From assembly GCA_016787225.1 (NCBI GenBank), contig JAEUUY010000001.1:1-61595 (forward strand): 61,595 bases of DNA, given 5' to 3'. The notes under the pieces are model-generated. The model searched no databases. It was not told the origin of the DNA and saw nothing but the letters and a program-made list of their open reading frames with translations. This DNA comes from Chitinophagales bacterium (GTDB lineage: Bacteria > Bacteroidota > Bacteroidia > Chitinophagales > JADJOU01). Positions 1,080 to 40,784 of this stretch are shown piece after piece (position 1 is the first letter of the stretch; each line of letters begins with the position of its first letter). The position numbers and the translations under genes are program-made.

Positions 1080-1389
1080 GAGTTGTACGATAGTTCAAGC
1101 GAATGGTGTTTTATGTAGTTTGGATATGCGGTATATTTTTGTGCTTGTCCGTCTCTGGAGGATTGACCGACATCTGGTGGACGCTATAGGGTAAAAAGTA
1201 TTCCGCTTTTCTTTCTTTATTTGCTTTTTTGAGTACTATATAATACCTAAAATAGCGACTATTTGGGTGCTTCGTTTTTCGTTTTTTTTTATGTTATTTT
1301 TTTTCTGAGATAAAAATAGGTCTTTTAGTCTAATTTTTGGTATTTTAATTTTATATATTCATGGCTAAAAACCCTAAGTTTTACCCTCC

Positions 1390-1557
1390 GAGGTGGTTCG
1401 TTTAGCTAAGTCCGTTAAAATTTTATCCATGAGGCTTAAAATTTTAACGAATTTGTCTAAAGCTTTATACATAGTATCTTAAAACTTTGGCGATTTTACC
1501 TAAAGTTTTAAGTCGTTTTCTTAAAGCTTTAGCCTTGGTCGCTAAAACGACCACCTC
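1390..1557. repeat. 168-bp dispersed element with 21-nt internal period, copy 1
   Basis: The element is bounded by an imperfect 17-bp inverted repeat, GAGGTGGTTCGTTTAGC at 1390 and GCTAAAACGACCACCTC at 1541-1557. Between these, a motif like CTTAAAGCTTTA recurs every 21 or 22 bases for about seven units. A second copy lies at 38443-38610 with exactly the same length. One frame gives a heptad-like peptide (EVVRLAK at the start, VAKTTTSAP at the end), but the frame changes once in the middle in both copies. I therefore treat it as non-coding or decayed. The flanks 1558-1689 show nothing else. Confidence 0.75.
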
Positions 1558-1689
1558 TGCACCTAAAGGCTAGGCACGGCTGCTGGGTTTGCTTATGTTA
1601 TCACTAAGTATTTTTAACTATACTAAAATCAAAATAGTTCACGTTATACAATTGATATTAAATTTTATAACCATTTAAACTTTTGGACT

Positions 1690-2165
1690 ATGCCATTAAA
1701 CAATTTAGATAAGATACACATTACCGCTACACAGATTGCAGACTTTGACAAAGCCTTAGACGATCTCATAACCATAGCTACTGCTATTACTCAAACCTCA
1801 CTGACGAAGAACGTGGTCGATATGGTAGTATCAATGAAAAGAACAAGCTATTGGTCAATGGTATCATGGATTTTCATAAAAATCAGCCCTATCTCCAAAG
1901 TTCTGACATCGACTGGGCAGAGTTTGAGGCGGACTATGCCGATCGACAATTCGCCGATACGAGAGCGGATAAAATTCAGAGCCTCATGCGCCTCATTACA
2001 GATTTTAAAATAGTACATGACTATGATAACTATCACGATGCACTGACTGACTATGACTATACGAAATACAAAGCAGGGACGAATACCCCAGGCTTTTCGG
2101 AAAAGCAAAACTACCTCAAACAATTTTTCCCCAATACAGGCAATACTACACCGCCAGCGGAGTAG
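1690..2165 (+). pseudogene. Frameshifted gene for a ~158-residue hypothetical protein
   Basis: The first 37 or so codons (MPLNNLDKIHITATQI, then DDLITIATAITQ) are in one frame. From about 1800 the sequence makes sense only in another frame, reading LTDEERGRYGSINEKNKLLV and running to a stop at 2165. The join falls around CTCAAACCTCACTGAC near 1794-1806. The two halves give one continuous acidic, soluble protein rich in Asp and Tyr, so I read a one-base loss (or two-base gain) in a single gene. A sequencing error or programmed frameshift cannot be excluded. Function unknown. Confidence 0.65.
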
Positions 2166-2197
2166 TTATTATTATAATTTTAAAGGGTTTACAATGG

Positions 2198-2226
2198 AGG
2201 CTGTCTGAAATGACAGTCTTTTTTTT
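2198..2226 (+). terminator. Intrinsic terminator after the frameshifted gene
   Basis: An 8-bp stem (AGGCTGTC / GACAGTCT, one G-T pair) with loop TGAAAT is followed by a run of T at 2219-2226. It sits 33 bp after the stop of the preceding reading frame and before the ABC-type pair. Confidence 0.75.
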
Positions 2227-3240: not shown

Positions 3241-3722
3241 TTTTTTGCCACGAATGTCACGAATTCACACTAATTCTATTTTGTTTCGCCTATGGCGTCG
3301 AATGTTCACGAATTGTGTCCATTTTCAAATCATCACATTTCCACATTAACTCATCTTCACATCAACAATCATTTTCATATTTTCACATCTTCAAATCTAT
3401 TTTTGCCACGAATGTCATGAATTCACACTAATTCTATTTTGTTTCGCCTATGGCGTCGAATGTTTACGAATTGAGTCCATTTTCAAATCATCACATTTCA
3501 ACATTAACTCATCATCGCATCAACAATCATTTTCAAATTTTCACATCTTCAAATCTATTTTTGCCACGAATGACACGAATTCACACTAACTTTATTTATT
3601 TCGCCTACGGCGTCGAATGTTCACGAATTGAGTCCATTTTCAAATCATCACATTTCCACATTAACTCATCTTCACATAAACAATCATTTTCAAATTTTCA
3701 AATTAAACAATTTTCAAATTTA
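3241..3722. repeat. 158-bp tandem repeat array, three units
   Basis: Units begin with TTTGCCACGAATG at 3244, 3402 and 3560, a spacing of exactly 158 bp each time. Each unit has repeated CACGAATT-like words, a small palindrome CGCCTAYGGCG, and an AT-rich tail with many copies of TTTTCAAAT and CACATCTTCA. The array fills the gap between the ABC ATPase and the DUF58 gene, which converge here. A related array with the same unit length lies at 6291-6945. Long frames through the array are by-products of the repeat. Confidence 0.85.
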
Positions 3723-6115: not shown

Positions 6116-6290
6116 ATGTTTATGTTTTAATTTTTATGACATGTAGGTTGTACTGTATGTAATATATTTAGTAGTGAGTTTTTATAGCCATAAGTCAAGA
6201 TTTGGTTAGGAGTTAATTTCATCATTATATATCTTTTTAAATTTTCAAATTTACTATCAATAATCATTTCTGCCCACCATCAAATCCATT

Positions 6291-6945
6291 TTTGCCACGA
6301 ATTGCACGAATGTTCACTAATTTATTTATTCATTTCGCCTACGGCGTCGAATACTCACGAATATCATTAATCTGTGCATTTACTCATTACAAAATATCAC
6401 ATCACAATCATTTTCAAATTATCAAATTATCACATCTTCAAATCTATTTTTGCCACGAATTGCACGAATGTTCACTAATTTATTTATTCAATTCACCTGC
6501 GACGTCGAATACTCACGAATATCACTAATCTGTGCATTTACTCATTACAAAATATCACATCACAATCATTTTCAAATTATCAAATTATCACATCTTCAAA
6601 TCTATTTTTGCCACGAATTGCACGAATGTTCACTAATTTATTTATTCATTTCGCCTACGGCGTCGAATACTAACTAACATTACTTATCTGTGCATTAACT
6701 CATTACAAAATTTCACATCTCAATCATTTTCAAATTTTCATATTTTCAAATTATCACATCTTCACATCTATTTTTGCCACGAATTACACGAATGTTCACT
6801 AATTTATTTATTCATTTCGCCTACGGCGTCGAATACTAACTAACATTACTTATCTGTGCATTAACTCATTAAAAATATCACATCACAATCATTTTCAAAT
6901 TTTCAAATTATCACATCTTCACATTAACACTCATTTTCAAATTCA
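6291..6945. repeat. 158-bp tandem repeat array, four units, upstream of moxR
   Basis: Unit starts (TTTGCCACGAATT) fall at 6291, 6449, 6607 and 6773, giving spacings of 158, 158 and 166 bp. The unit resembles that at 3241-3722, with CGCCTACGGCGTCGAATAC and the same AT-rich tail, but all copies here share their own variants such as GCACGAATGTTCAC. The two arrays have therefore expanded separately. The array lies between the end of the DUF4350 gene and the start of moxR and splits what is usually one operon. Stretch 6116-6290 is AT-rich and I see no clear promoter in it. Confidence 0.85.
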
Positions 6946-38442: not shown

Positions 38443-38610
38443 GAGGTGGTTCGTTTAGCCTAATGCATTAAAGTTTTAGCTTTAGAAGCTAAAATCTTAG
38501 CTAATTTGTCTAAAGTTTTATACATAGTATCTATAAACTTTGGCGATTTTACCTAAACTTTTAGGTCGTTTTCTCAAAACTTTAGCCTTGGTCGCTAAAA
38601 CGACCACCTC
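38443..38610. repeat. 168-bp dispersed element with 21-nt internal period, copy 2
   Basis: Ends GAGGTGGTTCGTTTAGC (38443-38459) and GCTAAAACGACCACCTC (38594-38610) are identical to those of copy 1 at 1390-1557. Units such as CTAAAGTTTTATACATAGTAT repeat with a 21-nt step. The inner sequence has diverged in places, yet the total length is still 168. The IS3-family element begins only 6 bp after its right end. Confidence 0.75.
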
Positions 38611-39079
38611 TGCACCTGTCTCGTCCTAAAATTACTTGACAGTTTTTGGTTAAAAAACTGATTTGGATTACATTTTTTTCTCTAAATCCTAAACAAATGT
38701 ACAGTAATATTTTTCATTCCTAATAATTCAATACTTCTGATTATTACTTTTCCTGAGATTATTTACAGGTAAAATACCTATTCCTAAAAACGTTTTACTG
38801 GCGATAAATTTAATCCTGAATTTACCTACACTATTTATTTTATTCCTAGAATAGTATGTCATGGCGGGCGAATATTCCTATAATGAGATATCCTTTTTTT
38901 AATACGTTTGTTTCGTCTATTTGAAGAGGACGTAGGCTCTGCTGGAGAGCAACTTACTAGCAATAGGATAGACCTTATACAAATAAGTTGGAATTGCGTA
39001 TAGTGAAAAAAAATAGTAGCTATACGCATATTTATTTGGTTAGTAGTATGGTCTAAAAAAAACTCAAAACACTTATTTT

Positions 39080-39982
39080 TCATACCACTATTGCTCCATT
39101 TTTAATTTTTTTCTTTACCCAGCTTTGACTTAGAGCACCTTCTCTTTGATGTGCTACTGCGGGAGTTAAGTAATTACAGCTTAAATGAGGTCTAAGCTCA
39201 TTGTATTTTCGTATGGCTTCATCGATAGTGTGCATAGCCTCATTGAAATCTTTGAATGGTTTACTTAATTCAAATTCTGTTTTTAAGATGCCATTGACAC
39301 GCTCTGCAATGGCATTTTCATAAGGGTCTCCATTTTCAGTCATCGATATTTTTATTCTATGGGCATTTAGTTGCTCTACATAGTTGGCAGAACAATATTG
39401 AACGCCTCTATCGGAATGGTGAATTAGGTTGTACAATTCCCTTTTGACGTTTTTACTAGCCATAAGAAAAGCTTGAATCACCCCTTCGCTGTGTAGTGTA
39501 GGGTAAAGGCAATATCCCACAATCTTACGGGAATAGGCATCGGTGATAATACTGAGATATGCAAATTTTCCAGAAAGTTGGATGTAGGTAATATCACTTA
39601 CCCATAGTTGATTCGGTTTAAATAAAACAAGGTCTTTGATTAAGTTTGGATATTTATAATATGGATGATTCGAGTTTGTGGTATAGGGCTTTCTTTTCCT
39701 ATATCTCAACAAATAGCCATGTTCTCCCATTAATTCGTACAATCTGTCCCGTCCAATTGAAATATCATGAACTGCTAAACGCTCTTGAAGCATAAAATGA
39801 ACCTTTCTTGTACCTATGCGAGGTAATTCCGAACGTATTTCTGCTACAATTTTCAATACGATGACTTCTTCTAGTTCCCTATCATTTTTTTCTTTAAATT
39901 GCTCATAATAAGCCTGACGGCTCTTACCAAACAGCTTACATAAAAATCCTATGCTAAAGCTAGGATAGAGTTGTAAGAGCAA
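39080..39982 (-). CDS. IS3-family transposase OrfB (DDE integrase-like)
   Basis: The OrfB part of an IS3 transposase, 300 residues from the TTG at 39982. An HTH_21-like part is near residues 45-95. The rve domain follows with WVSDITYIQL (first Asp), HHSDRGVQYCS (second Asp) and a final Glu in NAIAERVNGILKTE. It is probably made mainly as an OrfA-OrfB fusion: the frame is open upstream through KKVWHQTVKLLLQ to the slippery site in orfA. It cuts and joins the IS ends. Confidence 0.93.
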   Translation of the reverse strand: MLLQLYPSFSIGFLCKLFGKSRQAYYEQFKEKNDRELEEVIVLKIVAEIRSELPRIGTRKVHFMLQERLAVHDISIGRDRLYELMGEHGYLLRYRKRKPYTTNSNHPYYKYPNLIKDLVLFKPNQLWVSDITYIQLSGKFAYLSIITDAYSRKIVGYCLYPTLHSEGVIQAFLMASKNVKRELYNLIHHSDRGVQYCSANYVEQLNAHRIKISMTENGDPYENAIAERVNGILKTEFELSKPFKDFNEAMHTIDEAIRKYNELRPHLSCNYLTPAVAHQREGALSQSWVKKKIKNGAIVV

Positions 39983-39984
39983 TT

Positions 39985-40422
39985 TTACTGTTTGGTGCCA
40001 AACTTTTTTCTGATAGAAATGCTTAATTTGGATTCCGCAATATCAATTAATGTATTCAAGGCAGTAGCTTTCATTTGAGCTTCTTCTAGCTGCTTCTCCA
40101 CTACTTTAATATGTTTCTCTAAGGAAATAACTTTTTGACGCTCTTTTTCTGTCATAATAGGTAAAGATAATGGAATATCTGGTGCGTACATCGTCTGCCA
40201 TTCCTTGATTGTTTGAACTCTATTCGATACCTCGAAATCAAATTCTTCAATGGCTCTTTGAATAGTCATTCGACCACAATGAATCTCCATGACCAGCCAA
40301 CGCCTTAGTGCTATTTGATTTGGATCACTTGTTTTAAATTTAAAATTGATTTTTAAAGGATTATCCTTTCCTAATTGATTTTGATTATTCTTCATACCTA
40401 ATTTGGTTTGAAAAACTGTCAA
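39985..40422 (-). CDS. IS3-family OrfA DNA-binding protein
   Basis: A 145-residue OrfA. The first half has a helix-turn-helix region (NQIALRRWLVMEIHCGRMTI), and the C-terminal half is a leucine-zipper-like coiled coil (ISLEKHIKVVEKQLEEAQMK). It ends IRKKFGTKQ. The codons for KK lie on the slippery run where ribosomes may shift to the orfB frame. The start lies 20 bp inside the right inverted end, as is common in compact elements. Confidence 0.88.
   Translation of the reverse strand: MTVFQTKLGMKNNQNQLGKDNPLKINFKFKTSDPNQIALRRWLVMEIHCGRMTIQRAIEEFDFEVSNRVQTIKEWQTMYAPDIPLSLPIMTEKERQKVISLEKHIKVVEKQLEEAQMKATALNTLIDIAESKLSISIRKKFGTKQ
40003..40009 (-). promoter_or_regulatory. A6G programmed -1 frameshift site
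   Basis: On the minus strand A-AAA-AAG is read as the zero-frame codons AAA AAG of orfA. A one-base backward slip gives AAA AAA GTT TGG, which is exactly the frame that continues into orfB. This is the canonical heptamer of IS3 elements. Confidence 0.85.
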
Positions 40423-40459
40423 GTTTTTTCAGGATAAGACACTTTAGATTTACCCCCTA

Positions 40460-40478
40460 CCAGCTTGTCTTTTCGACG
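40460..40478. repeat. Short direct repeat beside the IS, copy 1
   Basis: CCAGCTTGTCTTTTCGACG is repeated with one change (CCAGCTTGCCTTTTCGACG) at 40594-40612. The pair occupies the 343-bp gap between the IS right end and the AbiJ-like gene, in which I see no gene. Confidence 0.5.
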
Positions 40479-40593
40479 AAGGAGAAAACTAGAAACATTG
40501 CAGGTACTATATGGACACCTCCTACGTCGGTGTGGCAAATTGGAGAAATAGAACTTGAAATAAACAAAGTAGTTAGATTGGCATTTTTCACTT

Positions 40594-40612
40594 CCAGCTT
40601 GCCTTTTCGACG
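40594..40612. repeat. Short direct repeat beside the IS, copy 2
   Basis: CCAGCTTGCCTTTTCGACG, 18 of 19 bases identical to 40460-40478 and in the same direction. Role unknown. Confidence 0.5.
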
Positions 40613-40784
40613 TAATTTCTGGCTATAGGAGGTCTAAATAGTGAGTCCCCTCTATATGATAAAAAAAATTACTAGAAAAAATAGAACGCACTATATTTGG
40701 AACATGATATTCGAAAGTGATATTGAAAAACCTACGGTAAAACTTCGGGGATTACATAGATAGCACCAATTTTAGCGAAACAGA

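Follow-up and report, generated by a model that had tools for sequence, protein, structure and literature searches.

Extragenic palindromic repeats that occur both alone and in clusters, in distant bacteria and with one linked gene, are familiar from the REP/BIME and REPIN-RAYT systems. Plasmid centromeres and iterons (ParR/parC, Rep) present phased sites that face one side of the DNA and adjoin the gene of a small protein, with sequences that vary between systems and a spacing that is kept, and type III toxin-antitoxin pairs such as ToxIN place tandem repeats beside a gene for a protein of about 160 aa. Nearest of all is BrickBuilt of Porphyromonas gingivalis, a Bacteroidetes element which is intergenic, consists of tandem units of about 20 nt within inverted-end flanks, and has dispersed copies whose unit number varies between strains (PMC4596501). 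A search of open-access papers for phased 21-bp or 42-bp arrays yielded only BrickBuilt as a near match, and an earlier description elsewhere is possible. The window, the whole stretch of 61,595 nucleotides from a Chitinophagales bacterium that was analysed, holds an element that resembles these systems in the respects just named.

Four copies of the element and a relocated module

The element was searched for in its own genome (G000) and in 60 relatives. Three copies were found in its own genome, two of them (A and B) in the window, and one in the sister genome G001 (Table 1); the other 59 relatives gave none. A first-pass annotation had reported two window copies of equal length, with 17-bp inverted ends and a diverged interior of 21-nt period, and this was confirmed, with two corrections given below. 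All four copies are 168 bp long and align over 168 columns without a gap, at pairwise identities of 131-159/168. The 44 variable columns all fall in the interior (44/134, against 0/34 in the two ends; Fisher p = 1.3e-5). The inverted ends are real and invariant across the four copies, but imperfect, GAGGTGGTTCGTTTAGC and GAGGTGGTCGTTTTAGC matching at 14 of 17 positions ungapped; within the element's own genome, the exact 13-base end word is confined to the three copies. Matches at lag 21 number 72/147, whereas 5000 shuffles averaged 40.5 and never exceeded 60, and elements A and B give the two strongest 21/42-lag signals of the window (z at least 6). The constant length, from which the annotation had argued, holds for these four homologous copies only, as arrays at related loci vary in unit number; across the array class, the conserved property is period, not length.

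Table 1. Locations of the elements, genes and associated features (window positions unless a contig or locus is given)
Feature	Location	Strand	Description
Element A	1390-1557	.	eight 21-bp phased units, imperfect 17-bp inverted ends; 5' half of module A
Element B	38443-38610	.	solo array copy, no adjoining family gene
Element C (third copy)	G000:C30:66894-67076	minus	no family gene
Fourth copy	G001:C100:42731-42913		sister genome (Sphingobacteriales MAG)
Block common to A and gene-less C (G000:C30)	about 1361-1596	.	94% identity
Module A	about 1379-2225		extent of homology between A and the G001 copy, gene included
Family-1 gene	1690..2165	+	~158-aa helical protein (predicted), no known family; one frameshift near 1791-1797
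Intact family-1 orthologue	G001:C100:43036-43509		
Terminator-like hairpin	2199..2226	+	GGCTGTCtgaaatGACAGTC then T8; right end of block common to G001:C100
IS3-type element	about 38617-40441		two transposase-like ORFs, ends TGTCTCGTCC / GGATAAGACA; inserted directly right of element B
G-rich array ends (gene-oriented)	L035:2530-2600; L067:914-950; L044:2291-2350; L046:2244-2285		

Homology extends past the 168 bp, over blocks that differ in extent between copies (Table 1). Element A belongs to a compact module in which the array is followed by a gene, termed family 1, and a terminator; copies B and C carry the array without the gene. The module and the G001 copy have 851 bp in common at 83% identity, spanning array and gene. 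The genes to the right of module A (window 2282 onwards) lie on G001:C108 and G003:C3 without the module, which is itself on G001:C100, and the module of about 850 bp has therefore changed place. Within it the gene has a dN/dS of 0.03 over 1791-2162, and the frameshift of copy A could be an assembly error. These data show that array and gene form a module that sits at a non-orthologous site in the sister genome. The earlier suggestion of a mobile element is supported in a broader form, in that the array moved with its gene and that solo copies exist; no transposase was found within the module, and no target-site duplication was recognisable by eye at the copies.

These observations bear on the possibility that the element is a MITE-like minisatellite of the BrickBuilt type, moved in trans by some transposase, with a gene link that is hitchhiking in the same accessory regions. 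All four copies have terminal inverted repeats, as MITEs and BrickBuilt-type elements do, and these are more conserved than the interior. The three copies in one genome are dispersed, B and C without a gene, and a Bacteroidetes MITE with tandem 23-nt units has been published (PMC4596501). The breadth of the gene link described below counts against this origin, as may the lack of a recognisable target duplication and of a transposase within the module.

No empty sites were found for copies B and C, whose flanks are insufficiently conserved; the IS3-type element abuts B, so part of the right flank of B may be lost. Beyond the IS3-type element lies a TTTTCGACGAAGGAGAAAAC-type dispersed repeat (40470-40489 and 40604-40619), which is seen again between gene and array at G000:C29 (L035, gene-oriented, near 2180-2230). 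The window also holds an intergenic 158-bp tandem repeat at 3242-3700 and 6280-6921 (2.9 and 4.0 copies, 91-93% match), the two arrays flanking two genes and fragments recurring in sister genomes. Short stretches left of module A (1163-1354, 1000-1129 and 132-258) are repeated on several G001 contigs.

Arrays beside two protein families

Family-1 homologues were present in 8/120 genomes of the order and 18/198 of the phylum, many of the genomes sampled being MAGs, and also in MAGs filed under Planctomycetaceae and others reached through genome G305; a single-protein scan of genome contigs gave five loci. The gene is under purifying selection (dN/dS 0.03-0.09). Its product is predicted, with low confidence, to be all-helical, and family-1 proteins such as that of L035 appear acidic by inspection. 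No DNA-binding domain was recognised in the family, Pfam, NCBIfam and PHROGs gave no significant match, a profile search against the PDB returned nothing significant, and PADLOC gave one weak match. AlphaFold models of the family protein (pLDDT 56 and 47) were too poor to use, and the Foldseek list derived from them was discarded as meaningless. A phage or plasmid origin was considered and rejected: there was no phage match, no viral contig, and one weak gammaproteobacterial plasmid match without an array.

Across Bacteroidota and the Planctomycetaceae-filed MAGs, family-1 genes adjoin arrays with a dominant lag of 21 or 42, most of which cannot be recognised as related in sequence, either to the window element or among themselves. 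Tandem Repeats Finder called an array at 39/51 family-1 loci, with a period within 1 bp of 21, 42 or 63 in 38, and detected none at about a quarter of the loci. Random anchors in 800 kb taken from these genomes for comparison had an array nearby 4.5% of the time, a conservative control in that its repeat calls were lenient. The binomial probability for 38/51 loci against this rate is ~2e-40; the loci are not fully independent and the true probability is therefore less extreme, although the loci span widely different sequences and phyla. Relatives from the order were the first in which the association was noticed, and it then held in the genomes reached later through G305, which provided a fresh test of the pairing: L134-L137 and L139 gave 21/42 signals with z 12-15, and L076, also reached through G305, one with z 12, while L138, on a contig with little flank, gave none. 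Gene and array thus co-occur across phyla although the array sequences usually do not align, a pairing far beyond chance that points to an undescribed two-part mobile module.

Of 28 loci whose 21-bp profile is strong, 23 have the array 3' of the gene and the others have it 5', and many of the 3' arrays sit beyond the gene's terminator-like hairpin. Such placement argues against a simple operator, and we therefore take the array to be a probable cis site of the module. Gene-free arrays exist elsewhere in the sampled sequence. Solo arrays of 21/42/63 bp without a family gene lie in the own genome at L098:14063-14314, L101:6754-7115 and L087:17689-17862, and L098 and L101 have TCATCATG words in common. 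These three fold no better than shuffles and so may be a separate class.

An array in G274 that looked gene-free lies immediately 5' of the gene of an unrelated protein of 231 aa, helix-rich by inspection and here termed family 2. Arrays were found at 9/13 family-2 loci, all with 41-43-bp units (binomial 5e-10 against the random-anchor rate) and with palindromes such as TCCAGAGCTCTGGA and GGGACGTACGTCCC. Profile comparison gave no homology of family 1 to family 2. Two unrelated families accompanied by arrays of one geometry give the strongest indication that the geometry matters. A MITE-like minisatellite, by comparison, has to accommodate a gene link that spans phyla and arrays without homology (75% of loci, with a chance rate of 4.5%), and one exact period that recurs in unrelated sequences; we consider it unlikely, though not negligible.

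Defence genes adjoin family-1 modules at L170, L175, L181, L182, L106, L116 and L113. Restriction neighbours include a type IIG enzyme (G301:C42 and G088:C45) and type I HsdR and HsdS (C29 of the own genome); Cas1 and Cas7b flank the module on G150:C18, one on each side, and a Pycsar-kind cytidylate cyclase (G055:C41), a Shedu protein (G248:C10) and a PtuB-like nuclease (G190:C1) were also seen. The module is often found near defence systems, but a control set of random genes had defence-like matches as well, so the link is a lead whose excess over background is not established.

Symmetry, turnover and coding capacity of the arrays

The dyad symmetry of array units, scored against column-permuted units, was significant, with a mean z of 2.0 and 23/42 values above 2. 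Any dyad in a sequence of period 21 implies another 10.5 bp away, so that a symmetry centre recurs every helical turn. The words ACCTCNGAGGT and CTAAAAG are common to otherwise unrelated arrays (z 6-9, null maximum 4.7), GAGGTGG also recurs in such arrays, and the window element ends CCCTCCGAGGTGG and CCACCTCTG agree with these shared words. The annotation had proposed a protein-binding array on one DNA face; the dyad symmetry of the units supports that proposal of putative binding, as does a 21/42-bp spacing that persists where sequences are unrelated.

At the orthologous loci G000:C29 and G001:C118, the genes have 82% nucleotide identity and a dN/dS of 0.06, while the array units are unalignable but 21-phased, and only the last unit and the G-rich end of the arrays still align. 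Arrays turn over far quicker than the gene. A G-rich block (GGGGTGGGGG, GAGGTGGGG) is often next to the last unit and is conserved where the units are not (Table 1). It is also possible that tandem duplication and hairpin-templated correction keep making palindromic repeats, without selection on the array. Such a mutational satellite would fit the very rapid unit turnover and the gain of 43-bp units between L048 and L049, two sister-genome loci whose unit numbers differ, but it leaves unexplained both the unit lengths at multiples of two turns in unrelated sequences and the attraction of two protein families, and we think it quite improbable.

The annotation had read a heptad-like peptide with a frame change common to both copies, and had raised the possibility of a repeat-peptide relic. 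Heptad-like peptides can indeed be read in pieces of both strands, as 21 nt would be seven codons. However, stops interrupt all six frames of each of the four copies (2-8 per frame), so the frame change does not belong to a coding frame. A codon-type substitution pattern, sought in the four copies, was absent (17/16/11 variable columns by codon position), and 8-unit profiles of related arrays likewise varied without codon phase. The L021 array, with units about 97% identical, nevertheless has 8-9 stops per frame, and related arrays have 22-, 41- and 43-bp units, which are not multiples of three. On these grounds a relic of a heptad-repeat peptide gene was rejected as scarcely credible. These data show that the array is non-coding, 21-phased and dyad-symmetric.

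A transcribed array might instead work as a structured RNA, for example as a repeat antitoxin to the small protein in a type-III-like toxin pair. Arrays do fold better than shuffles (mean z -4.0, below -2 in 26/38; element A z -6.5), but folding follows from dyad symmetry anyway, and arrays L101, L087 and L135 do not fold better. Covariation analysis of the four copies gave one compensatory pair in 48 (covariation term +0.5), and no Rfam family reached its gathering score for the element; sub-threshold miRNA hits at 1402-1532 were dismissed as chance hairpins. Given also the many arrays past a terminator-like hairpin behind the gene, and that an RNA function gives no reason for the 21/42-bp spacing, we see little chance of it.

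A proposed two-part module and known systems

With moderate confidence, we regard the element as one half, the cis-acting DNA, of a compact mobile module in two parts. This half would be the non-coding array, whose dyad-symmetric units recur at intervals of two helical turns (21 bp, or 42 bp where every other unit is different), and the other the gene for a small, conserved, probably all-helical protein, with its own terminator. A two-fold-symmetric or oligomeric protein, either the module product or a recruited host DNA-binding partner, would bind these sites on one face of the DNA, and side-by-side occupancy may then give a regular nucleoprotein array. Binding of this kind, at the level of DNA, would explain spacing, symmetry and freedom of sequence together. 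In accessory and defence regions, the array may thereby provide the module with a cis site of its own, through which it is maintained, moved or controlled. Several findings count against this reading: the seemingly acidic family-1 proteins with no recognised DNA-binding domain, the variable side of the gene on which the array lies, the gene-free arrays, the quarter or so of family-1 loci at which no array was called, and the lack of a recognisable target-site duplication or of a transposase. More tentatively, and with somewhat more doubt than belief, we propose an undescribed and widespread class of modules. Each would pair a small helical protein, from one of at least two unrelated families, with a rapidly evolving two-turn dyad array, which would act as a sequence-flexible but spacing-strict protein scaffold for module mobility or a defence-related function. 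If this is true, a DNA array conserved in spacing and not in sequence would be the physical partner of an unnamed protein family. It would open a direct route to what two orphan families do, allow a clean test of whether helical phase is selected in bacterial DNA and, perhaps, reveal mobile passengers of a new kind in defence islands.

Comparison with known systems separates the modules from each. BrickBuilt is one 23-nt sequence in one species, with leader and tail segments, and the available part of its description reports no linked protein gene, two-helical-turn phase or unit dyad symmetry (PMC4596501).

Type III toxin-antitoxin loci have RNA repeats 5' of the toxin and cotranscribed with it, whereas most arrays here are 3' of the gene, often beyond its terminator, and consist of 21/42-bp dyad units; the linked protein is predicted to be all-helical and matches no known toxin family, with no ToxN-type endoribonuclease among the linked proteins by family match. 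Partition and iteron systems have a ParM/ParA motor or a Rep protein, neither of which was seen beside the arrays (Pfam scan of ten proteins neighbouring six modules); the modules here are chromosomal loners, several per genome, with a product that lacks a recognised DNA-binding domain. REPIN-RAYT systems encode an HUH/Y1 tyrosine transposase, of which Pfam, NCBIfam and PHROGs gave no sign among the linked proteins, and the linked gene here, predicted all-helical, has no recognised catalytic motif. Unlike the REP/BIME and REPIN-RAYT repeats, the arrays described here vary in unit sequence from locus to locus and keep their spacing fixed.
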